Position numbers and translations under genes: made by a program. Below the pieces are notes generated by a model. It saw only the letters and a program-made list of their open reading frames with translations. It searched no databases and was not told the origin of the DNA. From Kiritimatiellia bacterium (GTDB lineage Bacteria > Verrucomicrobiota > Kiritimatiellia > RFP12 > UBA1067), in NCBI GenBank assembly GCA_017514235.1, contig JAFWKK010000001.1, positions 1 to 64,000 of the forward strand: a stretch of DNA of 64,000 nt. The letters are read 5' to 3'. This document shows positions 2 to 6,461 of this stretch, in pieces (the stretch's first letter is position 1; the number at the start of each line of letters is the position of its first letter).

Positions 2-365
2 GTTGTGATTTGATGCTCTATTGAAATGAGAAACACTCTGCTGCCGTCCCTCTACCTGCTCACGCAGTTGTGATTTGATGCTCTATTGAAATGAGAAACA
101 CTCGCACCTCTCGCGGTCGTGGTAGATGTGCGGTTGTGATTTGATGCTCTATTGAAATGAGAAACACTTAAGCAGCGTCTTGTTGTCGAGGCTGTCGGGT
201 TGTGATTTGATGCTCTATTGAAATGAGAAACACTTACTCGAGGCGCATCCCGCGCTCGGAGAGGTTGTGATTTGATGCTCTATTGAAATGAGAAACACTC
301 GCCCCTGCTGCGAGGCTTTCGCCCTTCTCGTTGTGATTTGATGCTCTATTGAAATGAGAAACACT
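2..365 (+). CRISPR. CRISPR array, type II-C, 6 repeats and 5 spacers visible (truncated at left edge)
   Basis: Six copies of a 36-bp direct repeat start at 2, 67, 133, 199, 264 and 330. They are separated by five unique spacers of 29-30 bp (38-66, 103-132, 169-198, 235-263, 300-329). All six copies read identically, so there is no degenerate terminal repeat. The array runs off the left edge, so its full length is unknown. Repeat and spacer sizes fit type II and the neighbouring cas9-cas1-cas2. The repeat 5' end (GUUGUGAU) is complementary to the predicted tracrRNA at 5339-5411. This puts the crRNA sense on the + strand, convergent with the cas operon, and any leader should lie left of the window. 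Confidence 0.97.
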
Positions 366-433
366 ATTGGGCTGAAATCGTCCTTTATTGTTGGGCATTT
401 CAATGAATTCTAAAGGCTGGGAAAAGGAAGCAG
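366..433. other. Spacer region between CRISPR array and terminator
   Basis: No gene is visible here. Bases 396-404 (CATTTCAAT) are complementary to the internal ATTGAAATG of the last repeat (348-356), so the end of a + strand array transcript could fold back on itself. The match is only 9 bases and does not extend, so I do not call it a tracrRNA anti-repeat. Confidence 0.5.
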
Positions 434-465
434 GCGGGGCCGTGTTTGCGGCCCCGCTCTTTTTT
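434..465 (+). terminator. Rho-independent terminator at end of CRISPR array transcript
   Basis: A perfect 9-bp GC-rich stem (GCGGGGCCG at 434-442 with CGGCCCCGC at 449-457) encloses a 6-base loop and is followed by TCT and a T-run (460-465). The T-run is on the + strand, so it should stop the pre-crRNA transcript just before the convergent cas2 gene, whose stop codon is at 465-467. The stem could also slow leftward transcripts, but there is no T-run in that direction. Confidence 0.85.
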
Positions 466-812
466 CAGAAAAATTCCAATTGATGTGGCGTTGCTGGCGG
501 TGGCTTGGCTTTCTTTCCTACGATATGTATTGTGTTCTCAAACTGTTTGTCTGTAACTTTGAGTATGGATACGGATCCTTCGTCGGGCACCAGATTTCTT
601 ACTCGTTCGATGTGAACATCTGCTGAGCCGTAGCTGGCGCAGTGTCTGATGTAAACTGAGTACTGGTGCATTCCGAATCCATCTTTCAGTAGGTTCTTCC
701 TGAATAGTGTCGCGCGTTTGCGTTGTGTCTTTGTCTCGACCGGTAAATCGAACATGACATATAGCCACATGATCTTGTAGCGGTTTATCGCTTCTTGCGA
801 GCAAAGTGTCAT
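465..812 (-). CDS. cas2: CRISPR-associated endoribonuclease/adaptation protein Cas2
   Basis: Cas2 partners Cas1 in spacer acquisition. The protein carries the typical Cas2 N-terminal beta strand with its aspartate (WLYVMFDLPVETK) and the downstream positions expected for a small ferredoxin-like fold. From the ATG at 812 it is 115 aa, and this start overlaps the cas1 stop as ATGA, which suggests translational coupling. Family members usually begin at the Met just before WLYVMFDLP, which here corresponds to an ATG at 768-770 (101 aa), so the true start may be the internal one; neither start has a strong ribosome-binding site. It is the last gene of the leftward cas9-cas1-cas2 operon and ends at the array terminator. 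Confidence 0.93.
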   Translation of the reverse strand: MTLCSQEAINRYKIMWLYVMFDLPVETKTQRKRATLFRKNLLKDGFGMHQYSVYIRHCASYGSADVHIERVRNLVPDEGSVSILKVTDKQFENTIHIVGKKAKPPPATPHQLEFF

Positions 813-1702
813 GGGAAACTAGGCAGGGCCAGTTCGTCGGACTCTTTTTTGTAGTATCGTGTGAGCGATGCTGTCGTGCAGGAGAGCGCAATCATCAAAG
901 GGCGTCGGACTTCACCTAAGATCGTGTCGCAGGAGAGCATCTGCAGAAGTCTCGCACGCATCTCTTTTGTCAGTTCAGCCATTGGCACGTCAAACGGTCT
1001 CACCTTGCCTAGGACGTATTGGTCGACAAACGGGCGATATGGTTCCATTATGTCGTCCGCAAGTGCAAATGCGTTGTAGCGATTGTGGTGGTGGATGCCC
1101 CGGAGACATATAAGGCCGGATCCCACTAATGCTCTTGCCGTTGCCGCCCGTAGTATTGCATAGCCGTAGTTCAGCGGCGCATTCGGCCATCTGCCGTTCC
1201 TGTAGCGTACGAATTCGTCCGGCCCCAATGCTTGGAAATAGATTCTGGCGGCCTGGGCTTCGCAGTTAGCAGGATCGCCATTCTTCACTTCATCGGCAAG
1301 GGACAGGAGTCGTTTCGCGCCATTCGCTCCAAGCCGTTCCATCAAGGTTGACTGGTTTCGTATCTTTTGTCGGATGATCATACGCCACAAACGCCCGTTC
1401 ACGGCATCGGTCGCCGAGAGTTGTGCTTCGATGGATTCTGCCGCCGTGCTGTTCGCTGCGTATGATAGCAATTGCGCGGATGGTGTATGAGATTTATCGC
1501 AAATGACGACGGCTACATTGTTCGCAGAAAGGAATTGAAGCGCTGCGGACGTTATTGCTATTTTATCTGATTCTAGAATTACAAATCCGACATCCTCTAT
1601 TGGCACGGTGCGATGTTCCCCAGACTCTGCGTTCCAGACTAGTTGTTCGTATTTGAGAGACAACTTGCCGACGCTGGAAAAGCATAGCGTTCTCGCAATC
1701 AT
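809..1702 (-). CDS. cas1: CRISPR-associated endonuclease Cas1 (type II)
   Basis: This is the integrase subunit of the Cas1-Cas2 spacer-acquisition complex. The protein is 297 aa, a usual size for type II Cas1. The expected metal-binding residues are visible: Glu148 in CEAQAARIYF, a His cluster at 204-206 in GIHHHNRYN, and Asp216/217 in ALADDIMEPYRPF. The segment LNYGYAILRAATARAL is characteristic of type II Cas1. Its ATG shares one base with the cas9 stop (TAATG at 1700-1704), so the two are translationally coupled, and its own stop overlaps cas2. No csn2 or cas4 is present, which fits subtype II-C. Confidence 0.97.
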   Translation of the reverse strand: MIARTLCFSSVGKLSLKYEQLVWNAESGEHRTVPIEDVGFVILESDKIAITSAALQFLSANNVAVVICDKSHTPSAQLLSYAANSTAAESIEAQLSATDAVNGRLWRMIIRQKIRNQSTLMERLGANGAKRLLSLADEVKNGDPANCEAQAARIYFQALGPDEFVRYRNGRWPNAPLNYGYAILRAATARALVGSGLICLRGIHHHNRYNAFALADDIMEPYRPFVDQYVLGKVRPFDVPMAELTKEMRARLLQMLSCDTILGEVRRPLMIALSCTTASLTRYYKKESDELALPSFP

Positions 1703-4700: not shown

Positions 4701-5283
4701 CAATGCGTTTTGCAAAATACTGTCCGAGCGTACGGCATCCGGCGTCGGCTATCTCTTTCGTCAGGGCGGCAATGTCTCCTTTAACGGCTCCGAGGTCTTT
4801 GCTCTCTGTTCCGTCAGCCAGTGCGTCCTTGCGGGAACTCTTGAATCCGCGGCGTTGAGCAATGTGGTATAGCGCACGGCCGAGGACAAGCGGCGAAACC
4901 TTGCCAGAGGTGGCAGCTGCACGATCGGCGTATGGATTTGACGTGTCGGTTGATTTTAGCCAGTTGATGAATGCCTTGTTGTCGATTGGATAGATGCCGG
5001 ATTTCTTCCAAGTCTCAAGTTCTTTCTCGGAGATGGGGCTCATTTCGTTCTTGCCCAAAATCTCCAGTAGTTTCCATTTGCGGAGCTTGCGGCGGAACTT
5101 CATTCGTCGTGCCATGCGTGCAGCGCGGCGTATGGCGGCCGGAGTTTCCAATGTGTCGCTGGCGGCATCGATGCCTTCGGGGAACACAACGACTCCTTTT
5201 TCGAGAATGTCGCCTGTTGTGTCGTCCAGCACAGCCCATCCGAGAGAATTGGTGCCAAGGTCTAGTCCCAGCGTTTTTTTCAT
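1702..5283 (-). CDS. cas9: Type II-C CRISPR effector nuclease Cas9
   Basis: This is an RNA-guided DNA endonuclease of 1193 aa, somewhat long for II-C. RuvC-I is at the N terminus (LGLDLGTNSLGW, Asp8) and is followed by an Arg-rich bridge helix near residues 50-75. RuvC-II contains Glu571 (TIRIELARSVND). The HNH domain is at about 640-675 (FDIEHTIPRS with His647, then Asn661). RuvC-III is HTHHAKDAMVIAAL with His821 and Asp824. All catalytic residues are therefore present. A CxxC pair (CDLC) lies near residue 856. The gene is visibly less GC-rich than the rest of the window, which suggests transfer of the locus. It heads the cas9-cas1-cas2 operon. Its start codon is preceded by a 13-base homopolymer rather than a normal Shine-Dalgarno sequence. 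Confidence 0.98.
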   Translation of the reverse strand: MKKTLGLDLGTNSLGWAVLDDTTGDILEKGVVVFPEGIDAASDTLETPAAIRRAARMARRMKFRRKLRKWKLLEILGKNEMSPISEKELETWKKSGIYPIDNKAFINWLKSTDTSNPYADRAAATSGKVSPLVLGRALYHIAQRRGFKSSRKDALADGTESKDLGAVKGDIAALTKEIADAGCRTLGQYFAKRIESERNSLCKTRVRKRYTGRVEHYMTEFAVIMETQGIAHSNPLYKSLYDAIFRQRPLRSQKHLVGPCPLEHRNPRSQIGHPAFEEFRMRTFVNNLSFRSTTTDERIPLTAEDRELACSAFMKESSTIKFSSISKLFKKKFKNESLKFHHYESDDTVTACSTRCKIKNGFGDIPYAEQKVFDALTFFDDEEKLKGWFRHHYPALSEENVVRLAKIHPKEGNAQYSLKAINKILPFLRKGHDLFTARLLAKMPDVIPQFAEHEDEIVLHIREMEAKCRAAREAMRIETFRREGNPPRLMDLLREYLLTEWNVDDKAWNKLYLHGDSPYEVDPKQPDRIPAVALGMIRNPLVQRSMTTLRRLVNYLRDHGKIDGDTTIRIELARSVNDYATRHAVQLWQKDRAALRDKARQELGASASEDLVDRYILWEEQGRMCLYTGKTISLGELVSGNSFDIEHTIPRSMSGDDSLANKTLCDAKYNREVKKGMVPTDCPNYESEIFTRLAPWRERVEGLRKTWQSRRNAAKAASDPQQRANARIKAIRTKLELDYWRDKLRRFEITSDKLIDPANGLSGFKRRQLVDTGIMSSHAVELLRSVYPNVYSVNGAATAFARKAWGIQGNEAKDRAEHTHHAKDAMVIAALTPSRFNAICTALKDDGGVTNVRPCDLCKPPYEGFAEKVRKATGEILVKHVLRQTTLRQSSKRNALAKAHPQKADPTKTIKFVNSKGDTVRGALHKDTFYGCIARPDNGKKAFVVRKPLTGPIAAIETLVDKIVDVGIRDIVSSALVELKKSGIKTLEPGMIKMPSGVPVNKVRTFAQTTNPMRLKDHAIASQFDYKMPYYVRTSEGSNFRLGVFKANKKLSIKPDNALVWAQSHKKPDYAPLHKQEGFIGYIVPGSMAIAAEHANINNTKELKPAELSKRLYKVVKFESTGRITFRRHLEARASVVLEKDLKAIGKHKTGESSVNFENPHELLYLSPGVYFSNMLFEGIHFKMMLDGTIIFL

Positions 5284-5290
5284 GTCGCTA

Positions 5291-5303
5291 CCCCCCCCCC
5301 CCC
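5291..5303 (-). promoter_or_regulatory. G13 homopolymer in the ribosome-binding position of cas9
   Basis: On the cas9 strand, 13 consecutive G residues end 7 bases before the ATG (5281-5283), exactly where a Shine-Dalgarno sequence belongs. A G-run can base-pair with the CCUCC of 16S rRNA, so it could serve as the binding site. Homopolymers of this length are prone to slippage. This is the longest single-base run I saw in the window. Confidence 0.7.
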
Positions 5304-5304
5304 A

Positions 5305-5333
5305 TTGACGAGATTACGGAAATATTATATCAT
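5305..5333 (+). promoter_or_regulatory. Predicted tracrRNA promoter
   Basis: A TTGACG -35 (5305-5310) and a TATCAT -10 (5328-5333) are separated by 17 bp. Initiation 6-7 bases downstream would start at about 5339-5340, at the first base of the anti-repeat. The element overlaps the leftward cas9 promoter. Confidence 0.65.
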
Positions 5334-5353
5334 ACAGGCGCATCTTATCACAA
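5324..5353 (-). promoter_or_regulatory. Predicted cas9-cas1-cas2 promoter
   Basis: On the minus strand there is an extended -10 (TGATATAAT, 5332 to 5324) and a TTGTGA -35 (5353 to 5348) with an 18-bp spacer. The TGATATAAT form matches the extended -10 seen at many other genes here. The -35 hexamer lies inside the tracrRNA anti-repeat DNA, so the two promoters overlap. Confidence 0.65.
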
Positions 5354-5411
5354 CAAGGCTATATGCCGAAGTCGTTTTGAGACTGCAGCCCGGTTCGCCG
5401 GGCATTTTTAT
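5339..5411 (+). ncRNA. Predicted tracrRNA
   Basis: The anti-repeat pairs with the CRISPR repeat in two blocks: GCATC (5340-5344) with repeat GATGC, and ATCACAAC (5347-5354) with repeat GTTGTGAT. A UU/UU internal loop between them gives the usual bulged type II duplex. It is followed by a short nexus-like hairpin (GGC, UAUAU, GCC at 5357-5367), a second small stem (AGUC with GACU, 5370-5384) and a Rho-independent terminator. The RNA is divergent from cas9. The region is a confident match to tracrRNA architecture; the exact ends are predicted, not measured. Confidence 0.85.
5388..5410 (+). terminator. Rho-independent terminator of tracrRNA
   Basis: A 6-bp stem (GCCCGG 5388-5393 with CCGGGC 5398-5403) is closed by a UUCG tetraloop (5394-5397) and followed by ATTTTTA. 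It would also form the 3' hairpin that Cas9 binds in a tracrRNA. Confidence 0.85.
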
Positions 5412-5439
5412 TGCCTGAAACAGGTGTGTTGCCTGTAAC

Positions 5440-5466
5440 GCGCATTCTGACCGTATGGTCATGCGC
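5440..5466. other. Imperfect inverted repeat downstream of tRNA-Gln
   Basis: GCGCAT (5440-5445) pairs with ATGCGC (5461-5466), and inside it GACC (5449-5452) pairs with GGTC (5457-5460) around a 4-base loop. It lies 20 bases beyond the 3' end of the leftward tRNA and may act as a processing or termination hairpin, although no T-run follows on either strand. Confidence 0.45.
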
Positions 5467-5485
5467 AATGCGGACGCGTTCGAGT

Positions 5486-5559
5486 TGGTTGTCCCGCCTG
5501 GATTCGAACCAGGACTAAGAGAATCAAAATCTCCTGTGCGGCCAATACACCACGGGACA
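5486..5559 (-). tRNA. tRNA-Gln (anticodon UUG)
   Basis: The minus strand folds into a standard cloverleaf. The 7-bp acceptor pairs TGTCCCG with CGGGACA, the T arm contains GGTTCGAATCC, and the anticodon stem GGAGA/TCTCT holds the loop TTTTGAT with anticodon TTG at its centre. This reads CAA (glutamine). The discriminator base is A and the 3' CCA is encoded (5488 to 5486). Confidence 0.96.
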
Positions 5560-5572
5560 GCAATATGCATAT

Positions 5573-5578
5573 AGTATA
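5573..5578 (-). promoter_or_regulatory. Predicted -10 box of tRNA-Gln
   Basis: TATACT on the minus strand ends 14 bases before the mature tRNA 5' end, leaving room for a short 5' leader. No clear -35 was seen. Confidence 0.45.
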
Positions 5579-5612
5579 CAATATTTGCCGTCGTCTGTCA
5601 TCGTCGGCGGAC

Positions 5613-6461
5613 CTACTTGCGGGCAAGGATGCGCATGACACGTCTTATGTCCGCCGCCATCGCGTCGATTGCCGTTACGGCGATGTCATGGAACTGCAGT
5701 CCGTCGGGATTGCGCTTAACGAGGTCGCATACGGCGCGACCGCCGGCTAGCGCACCGTAGGTGTAGTAGTTCACCTTGCGGATGCCGCGGGCGATCGCCT
5801 CGCGGTAGTCTTTTTCGCAAAGCCCCGATCCGCCGTGCATCACCAGCGGCAGTTCGTTCGTCGCGGCATGGACGCTTTCAATCACTTCGAGCGACAGCTT
5901 CGGGGTGGTCTTGTAGATGCCGTGCACGGTTCCGAACGAGATCGCGAGCGCGTCCACTCCCGTCCTCTCCGCGAATTCCGCAGCCTCGCCGGGTTTTGTG
6001 TAGAAGTCTTCCGGGGCGTAGTCACCCAGCTCTCCCCTAAAGTTGCTTGGCATCGAACCGAGCTCGGCCTCGACGGTGGCGCCCAGCTCGTGCGCTATCT
6101 TGGCCACTTGCGCAGTGGCGGCGACATTCTCCTCGTAAGGCAGCGTCGAGCCGTCGAACATGACCGACGTGAACCCCATCGCGAGCGCCCTGAGGCAGTG
6201 TGTCACCGACGAACCGTGGTCGAGATGCACGGCGACGGGAGTCTTCGCATCCTTGGCTAGGCGAAGCATGAGCGGACCGGCTATGGAAAGCGGCAGGTAC
6301 TGCTCGTGCACCGTGGCGTGCTGCAGGATGAACGGCATGCCCATTTCCTCCGACGCTTTCACGGCGGCCATGGCCGATTCCAGCGTTGCGCAGTTGAACC
6401 CTCCGACGGCGTAGCCGCCTTTCGCTGCGCCGGCCAGCATCTCTTTCATGCTTACAAGCAT
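5613..6461 (-). CDS. Class II fructose/ketose-bisphosphate aldolase
   Basis: This is a Zn-dependent aldolase that cleaves a ketose bisphosphate into DHAP and an aldehyde. The 282-aa length matches the GatY/KbaY/Fba class II family. Visible signatures are the metal-binding HLDHG segment, VEAELG, the phosphate-binding SFGTVHG, and HGGSG near the C terminus. A clear AAAGGAG lies 6 bases before the ATG. The ATG overlaps the stop of the upstream SorE-like gene (TAATG), so the two are coupled. The pairing suggests that the reductase makes a sugar phosphate which, after a phosphorylation, the aldolase splits. Which sugar is used cannot be read from sequence alone. Confidence 0.93.
   Translation of the reverse strand: MLVSMKEMLAGAAKGGYAVGGFNCATLESAMAAVKASEEMGMPFILQHATVHEQYLPLSIAGPLMLRLAKDAKTPVAVHLDHGSSVTHCLRALAMGFTSVMFDGSTLPYEENVAATAQVAKIAHELGATVEAELGSMPSNFRGELGDYAPEDFYTKPGEAAEFAERTGVDALAISFGTVHGIYKTTPKLSLEVIESVHAATNELPLVMHGGSGLCEKDYREAIARGIRKVNYYTYGALAGGRAVCDLVKRNPDGLQFHDIAVTAIDAMAADIRRVMRILARK

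Follow-up and report, generated by a model that had tools for sequence, protein, structure and literature searches.

The window analyzed here is a 64,000-nt stretch of DNA from a Kiritimatiellae MAG. It begins at base 1 of contig 52, and the contig starts inside a CRISPR array. Next to cas9, on the opposite strand, lies a short segment that an earlier note on this DNA had interpreted as the tracrRNA gene of a II-C CRISPR-Cas9 system. The locus raises the question of whether this segment indeed encodes a guide RNA matched to the neighboring repeats and, if so, whether its transcript is trimmed to size or starts at its final 5' end. In our best explanation, to which we assign a probability of about 0.93, the segment encodes a II-C tracrRNA whose transcription starts at the anti-repeat and which does not need trimming by RNase III. 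Comparison of sequences further established the putative RNA as part of a single conserved locus that also holds its cognate repeats and Cas9, Cas1 and Cas2. The features are listed in Table 1.

Table 1. Features of the CRISPR-Cas9 locus in window coordinates
Feature	Position	Strand	Details
CRISPR array, 6 repeats GTTGTGATTTGATGCTCTATTGAAATGAGAAACACT, 5 spacers of 29-30 nt	2-365	+	Runs off contig
cas2-proximal leader	366-410	+	ATTG at array edge, CTTTA ~15 bases on
Terminator downstream of array	433-458	+	On array's transcribed strand
cas2	465-812	-	Cas2 model match
cas1, type II (TIGR03639)	809-1702	-	Profile match
cas9, 1193 aa	1702-5283	-	Cas9 model match; motif residues intact
Predicted tracrRNA promoter, TTGACG -17 bp- TATCAT	-35 5305-5310, -10 5328-5333	+	Consensus scan
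Probable cas9 promoter, TTGTGA -18- TATAAT with TG	5324-5353	-	Scan and shuffles
Predicted tracrRNA gene	5340-5409	+	Divergent from II-C locus
Upper-stem anti-repeat, GCATC	5340-5344	+	Start of transcription predicted at 5340, give or take 1-2 bases
UU (TT in DNA) of 2x2 U-U/U-U internal loop in repeat duplex	5345-5346	+	
Lower-stem anti-repeat, ATCACAAC	5347-5354	+	
Nexus hairpin, GGC-UAUAU-GCC	5357-5367	+	Stem identical in 19/19 aligned rows
Hairpin 2, AGUC-GUUUUGA-GACU	5370-5384	+	Arms 5370-5373 and 5381-5384
Intrinsic terminator, GCCCGG-TTCG-CCGGGC, 6-bp stem, UUCG loop	Stem-loop 5388-5403, whole 5388-5409	+	

Structure and uniqueness of the tracrRNA gene

The two anti-repeat blocks that the earlier note had placed around a UU were confirmed at the same positions, and the nexus, the second stem, the UUCG-capped terminator and the promoter were each found where it had located them. 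Both promoter and terminator were re-found by an independent consensus scan. The promoter was the top-scoring site, equaled by none of 100 shuffles, and the terminator stem is followed by an A and then by five T residues (5405-5409). Overall, region 5200-5600 contained four promoter-like sites against a shuffled mean of 0.6, and one terminator-like site against 0.3. A tRNA-Gln (TTG) gene on the minus strand (5486-5559) converges on the tracrRNA terminator.

The probable cas9 promoter stands back to back with that of the tracrRNA, and its -35 box falls inside the anti-repeat DNA. None of 100 shuffles yielded a site as strong in the window or in locus L055; in the other loci scored the site was weaker, and we rejected a divergent cas9 promoter as a feature of the clade. 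A run of 13 C residues (5291-5303) separates the start of cas9 from the tracrRNA promoter and falls at the expected cas9 ribosome-binding site, while the longest C/G run at this place in other loci is 6. Its reading as a phase-variation tract was also rejected: the assembly has 12 separate C/G runs of at least 10, which by our own estimate is not above the expectation from base composition, and the run is therefore merely noted.

We searched the window for the 15-mer GCATCTTATCACAAC, allowing up to two mismatches, and obtained seven matches, namely, the six array repeats and the tracrRNA site, whereas 0.02 matches were expected from shuffled windows. In the whole 3.96-Mb assembly, GCATCNNATCACAAC matched without mismatch only the six repeats and positions 5340-5354. 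The earlier note had suggested a covariance-model search and had named a better anti-repeat elsewhere in the genome as the finding that would speak against it. Our own model, built from 18 rows (the window and L036 included, L037 and L046 left out), produced a single match in this genome, at 5338-5409 with an E value of 6.5e-16, after 150 of 1710 first-look candidates had been scored. Within the scope of these two genome searches, no better anti-repeat was found. An Rfam scan, on the other hand, matched no tracrRNA family even at E values up to 10, and the gathering score was not reached; we assume that Rfam does contain a tracrRNA family. That the true tracrRNA is encoded elsewhere and this one is a chance anti-repeat is a reading to which the 92.36% completeness of the assembly and the roughly three sites with 13/15 matches expected in 3.96 Mb from base composition alone lend something. 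Nevertheless, we consider it close to negligible, given that the same RNA lies upstream of cas9 in relatives, that it covaries with the repeats, and that the match to the whole-structure model is unique in the genome.

For the covariation analysis, repeat and tracrRNA were joined in 19 rows, omitting L036 (no array), L038 (insertion) and the second L044 copy. Standard pairs occupied 98.3% of the 418 cells (22 pairs, 19 rows), and changes on both sides were seen at 11 of the 22 pairs and in 5 of the 13 repeat:anti-repeat pairs. The covariation score of 0.377, against 0.161 in shuffles and at most 0.081 in slid structures, was reached by none of 500 shuffles, a count that overstates independence because the rows are related. 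Both the repeat:anti-repeat and the terminator stems covary. The number of further standard pair types, however, did not exceed the shuffles (20 versus 19.1; 199/500). As the nexus stem never varies, it speaks neither for nor against the structure. Hairpin 2, which is displaced by one alignment column, did not enter the count; in the folds of 22 rows it takes forms such as AGUC/GACU, AGUA/UACU and AGGU/ACCU, and it is rearranged in L038. In sum, the segment displays the features of a tracrRNA: an anti-repeat that can pair, and covaries, with the cognate repeat, followed by a nexus, a 3' hairpin and a terminator. Together with its position upstream of cas9 in relatives and its uniqueness in the genome, this bears out the tracrRNA identity proposed in the earlier note.

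The window duplex of 8 + 5 bp around the U-U/U-U loop has a predicted energy of -21.9 kcal/mol, and the clade A rows with repeats (see below) range from -17.2 to -25.3 kcal/mol; in L037 and L038, pairing continues across the loop position. When the repeat was added to the folding of the tracrRNA, a check proposed in the earlier note, the canonical structure won at -41.3. The median of -31 given for II-C consensus repeats (PMC12080349) allows a rough comparison, since it was calculated with another program, IntaRNA.

We compared the gene with known systems. In the parts of the Campylobacter jejuni report considered here, tracrRNAs of ~62 and 74 nt are described (PMC3656092), and in a metagenomic collection, 79.2% of type II tracrRNA candidates lay upstream of the effector and 69.8% were reversed (PMC10278012), a placement that the window shares and that is the commonest in that set. 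Length, place and orientation of the window tracrRNA are thus ordinary, and the epithet "unusually short" in the earlier note does not hold. The small locus with few cas proteins also resembles that of C. jejuni (PMC3656092). In C. jejuni, however, RNase III is needed for crRNA maturation, two tracrRNA forms occur, and the repeats carry promoters and end in an extended -10 box (PMC3656092), whereas the window tracrRNA is predicted to be short from the moment of transcription, and the array repeats end in AACACT. The metagenomic II-C system EH CRISPR-Cas9 likewise has a predicted tracrRNA upstream of cas9, 36-bp repeats and an array at the contig end; it differs in its ~100-bp tracrRNA region, and the consulted part of its description contains no start at the anti-repeat (PMC10281378). 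A near-identical nexus, AAGGCTATAAGCCGAAG, and lower-stem anti-repeat are found in the Bacteroidota-type II-C locus of Flavobacterium salilacus (L008), the Cas9 of which is 28% identical in the best segment; there, however, the repeat has 47 nt and a 49-nt stretch aligns to it as anti-repeat. The main text of PMC10278012 does not contain the strings Kiritimatiell-, Verrucomicrob- or rumen. Among the titles and opening lines of abstracts listed by our searches, which covered neither subscription journals nor supplements, none concerned Kiritimatiellae Cas9 guide RNAs or a self-closing tracrRNA, which is weak evidence of absence.

Cas genes, array and assignment to type II-C

In the window, cas9, cas1 and cas2 adjoin without room for csn2 or cas4, as is the case in II-C; the upstream neighbors are tRNA-Gln and an open frame, and whatever lies beyond the array is not on this contig. 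Among PDB sequences, the cas9 product matched Cas9 chains best. In agreement with the intact catalytic residues claimed in the earlier note, D8, E571, H647, N661, N670, H821 and D824, which we take to be catalytic or HNH/RuvC motif residues, were invariant in 29 aligned Cas9 proteins. The protein thus has the HNH and split RuvC domains of a II-C Cas9 with their motif residues intact. Because the plus-strand repeat pairs with the tracrRNA and a plus-strand terminator lies downstream of the array, crRNAs appear to be read on the plus strand. The array would then be transcribed opposite to the cas operon, with the leader at its cas2-proximal end, as is also expected of II-C. The leader motifs ATTG and CTTTA were common to the window and all nine relatives printed in a by-eye comparison of 10 loci. 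As judged from the sequence, the array-cas2 flank fits the II-C layout outlined in PMC12080349, in which acquisition takes place at the end of the array that is transcribed last.

The same source describes II-C as having a promoter in each repeat (PMC12080349). This was not found in the window: the repeat ends in AACACT, with three of six matches to TATAAT, and positions 1-900, where the array is truncated by the contig end, contained no promoter-like site. Among the relatives with arrays that were scored, 8 of 19 had a -10 box at the repeat end (5/6 matches). Six loci (L041, L042, L044, L045, L046 and L055) have an extended -10 box at the repeat end (TGnTATATT, TGnTATAGT or TGnTACAAT), located 16 bp after TTGATG or TTGACG; of the remaining repeats, those of L037 and L043 have the -10 hexamer without TG, and the box is absent from L005, L007, L039 and L040 as well as from the window. 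Since the box varies among close kin, we did not take the missing repeat promoter to exclude II-C.

For each of the five spacers, we scanned viral contigs with its final 20-21 nt. Three spacers had no match; spacers 2 and 5 matched one and five contigs, respectively, but these hits agreed at only 23-24 of 30 nt over the full length and were rejected as chance, because only 3-4 of the 10 bases outside the search pattern agreed. The scan of viral contigs thus gave no protospacer or PAM, nor did the tracrRNA core or the repeat match there. The word "complete" in the earlier note is thus only partly borne out, as the contig begins in the array, the window repeats have no -10 box and no protospacer or PAM was found.

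Relatives and the transcription start

In the species-level collection, three of four relatives are named Kiritimatiellae or Kiritimatiellia, and they come from gut and rumen. Cas9 matches (E ≤ 0.001) were obtained in 4 of 59 near genomes and in 61 of the 387 genomes that represented the phylum; both counts include the own genome, and many of the 61 are partial or distant. The region upstream of cas9 in 30 loci, including the window and omitting L006 as the same contig as L055, yielded 22 tracrRNA rows from 21 loci by pattern and terminator. At E < 1e-4, the covariance model matched 29 of 33 locus sources (L044 twice), of which 18 are training loci that match by construction and 11 lie outside the model; L058, L061, L064 and L011 gave no match. 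Among the 59 near genomes, own included, it matched five, namely, all four with a Cas9 match and one orphan, and none of the other 54. Wider draws, which overlap and used stricter filters, gave matches in 35 of 346 genomes of the class and 13 of 162 of the order.

Several loci depart from the window in layout. Five clade D loci have the RNA between cas2 and the array rather than upstream of cas9, and in L051 it lies beyond cas2 near the contig end; these are L049-L053 and L059 (beyond cas2 in all, before the array in 5/6), and the L049 duplex has no U-U/U-U loop. The array is parallel to cas9 in L037, L038 and the clade B loci and antiparallel in the nearer kin of the window. In L044 the tracrRNA gene and promoter region are tandemly duplicated (5398-5470 and 5591-5663), and in L038 a nexus/hairpin segment is tandemly repeated (5638-5703 and beyond) within a tracrRNA of ~116 nt.

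The orphan (L079; G016:C92:20441-20516) consists of an intact tracrRNA with its promoter, lies 160 bases from a contig end and has no cas9 match; a nearby short open frame starts with MKKTF and then departs from the Cas9 sequence. In G177 (L063), the tracrRNA stands beside a cas9 piece with an internal stop. Such copies, as well as the absence from the window repeats of a -10 box that some relatives have, are what one would cite for a decayed remnant, in which the anti-repeat region survives and the system no longer works. We regard this as highly improbable for the window, where cas9, cas1 and cas2 are open with intact motif residues, the six repeats are identical over 36 nt with differing spacers, and both promoter and terminator are present.

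The position of the predicted transcription start was compared among relatives. In clade A, the Cas9 clade of the window (15 loci, 16 promoters), the best sigma-70-like site pointed to a start at the first anti-repeat bases in 16 of 16 cases, against 2.0 of 16 expected from shuffles; this register was defined as a start 7-11 bases before the lower-stem CACAA, no more than about two bases from where the upper stem begins, and the scorer was our own simple sigma-70 weight table, which may not fit the sigma factor of the host. A second type, clade B (six loci), combined a longer upper stem with a predicted start at -26 to -31. Among RNAs that had not been used before, four of five of the short type kept the register, L110 breaking it with a start at -38, and none of seven of the long type fell in that range; 15 of 16 loci gave output in this test (L118 had no pattern match), and L099, L100 and L107 repeat RNAs already seen. 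The promoter starting the RNA at the first anti-repeat base, as predicted in the earlier note, is thus supported by the clade A register. In the Cas9 tree, which comprised 29 of 30 proteins (L045, with a broken frame, was omitted), the short type stood apart with 14 rows and a branch support of 100/99, as did the long type with 86/96 and the downstream type with 90/95; the L011 Cas9, whose RNA lies beyond its contig, also fell on the short-type side. In general, tracrRNA groups have been described as largely tracking Cas9 clades (PMC7606464). On the present sample, the short start-at-anti-repeat design may have a single origin.

From this promoter, transcription would start at the first anti-repeat base and give a primary transcript of ~70 nt, the 5' end of which would already be mature, so that RNase III trimming would not be needed. 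Alternatively, read-through or a second promoter could start a longer tracrRNA upstream, which RNase III would trim to the predicted length. A 13-bp split duplex is a poor substrate for RNase III, the sequence upstream of GCATC in the window adds just two more repeat pairs, across a mismatch, and the best promoter pointed at the anti-repeat in all 16 clade A cases of the first comparison. On the other side stand the usual maturation of type II RNAs by RNase III, the upstream starts and longer upper stems of clade B, and the longer CRISPR transcripts accumulated by C. jejuni without RNase III, along with its two tracrRNA forms (PMC3656092). We consider such a longer precursor unlikely and conclude, from the predicted promoters, that the clade A tracrRNA is probably born mature, with a 13-bp duplex. 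In this design, the tracrRNA would pair with the crRNA by 8 + 5 bp around the U-U/U-U loop, and nexus, hairpin 2 and terminator stem would be the elements by which the paired RNA binds Cas9. The loaded Cas9 would cut DNA matching the spacer, and the crRNA alone would still need its ends made.

Predicted closed form of the free RNA

Folded by itself, the 70-nt RNA reached -27.1 kcal/mol against -15.3 in shuffles (z -4.1). In this predicted fold, 5340-5347 pair with 5378-5382 and 5384-5386, i.e., the anti-repeat with the loop and 3' arm of hairpin 2, which encloses the nexus and leaves hairpin 2 unformed. Freeing the anti-repeat of the window would cost 5.8 kcal/mol, a value reached by 3 of 200 shuffled anti-repeats; the corresponding counts were 1 to 69 of 200 in 15 clade A rows and 25 to 132 of 200 in the six clade B rows. 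For further RNAs, the counts per 100 shuffles were 11 (L108), 51 (L110), 10 (L119), 4 (L122) and 4 (L075) for the short type and 25 to 52 for seven of the long type. We also replaced parts of hairpin 2 at random and combined the p values by Fisher's method for 14 clade A rows (L038 excluded), a thinned set of 10 and five clade B rows, L060 of the six being lost because its pattern was not found. Random loops gave 3e-7, 1.6e-6 and 0.91, respectively, and random stems 0.002, 0.011 and 0.99. The stem control was therefore far weaker than the loop control (0.011 versus 1.6e-6 in the thinned 10), and part of the loop signal may reflect A/U-richness, as the random loops had uniform base composition. 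All these p values are too small, because related rows were treated as independent.

Tails were then exchanged among 18 clade A RNAs (without L038, L119 and the second L044 copy), 13 of clade B and three of the six clade D tails. In 14 of the 18 clade A RNAs, the own tail beat all 16 clade B and D tails (means of 3.1 for own and 0.25 for foreign), while L043, L044, L045 and L110 failed and show no closed fold. Clade A tails are, however, in part just stickier, since clade B anti-repeats reached 1.73 when closed by them and 0.69 when closed by clade B tails of their own. Within clade A, sub-lineages t1 and t3 preferred their own tails, t3 consisting of two rows only, and t2 did not (1.58 with t2 tails versus 3.38 with t1 tails).

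In our view, the closed form is a genuine prediction, but its function is uncertain. One possible, though rather doubtful, proposal is that the tracrRNA of this Kiritimatiellae/Verrucomicrobiota Cas9 clade is born mature and latched and that only a true crRNA opens the latch and loads Cas9. An internal repeat mimic in hairpin 2 would hold the anti-repeat closed, enclosing the nexus, until a crRNA arrives; the cognate duplex (about -22 kcal/mol) would then open the latch (~3-6 kcal/mol in the window and near kin) and free hairpin 2. Protection of the short 5' end would be as likely a use of the closed form as control of loading.

Collectively, our analysis describes a genuine and ordinary II-C tracrRNA, and it is the promoter register tested across the clade and the predicted closed conformation that go beyond the first reading of this locus. 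The window contributes a II-C guide RNA from uncultured gut Kiritimatiellae that is clean and open to testing and whose Cas9, repeats and terminator are known, and the start at the anti-repeat, predicted across the clade, would be a natural case in which to ask what minimum of duplex and processing suffices for Cas9. If the latch is true, chance partner RNAs would be kept away from Cas9, which would accept a true crRNA only, and the closed form, if real, would be a structural check that could prevent Cas9 from being loaded on off-target cellular RNAs.
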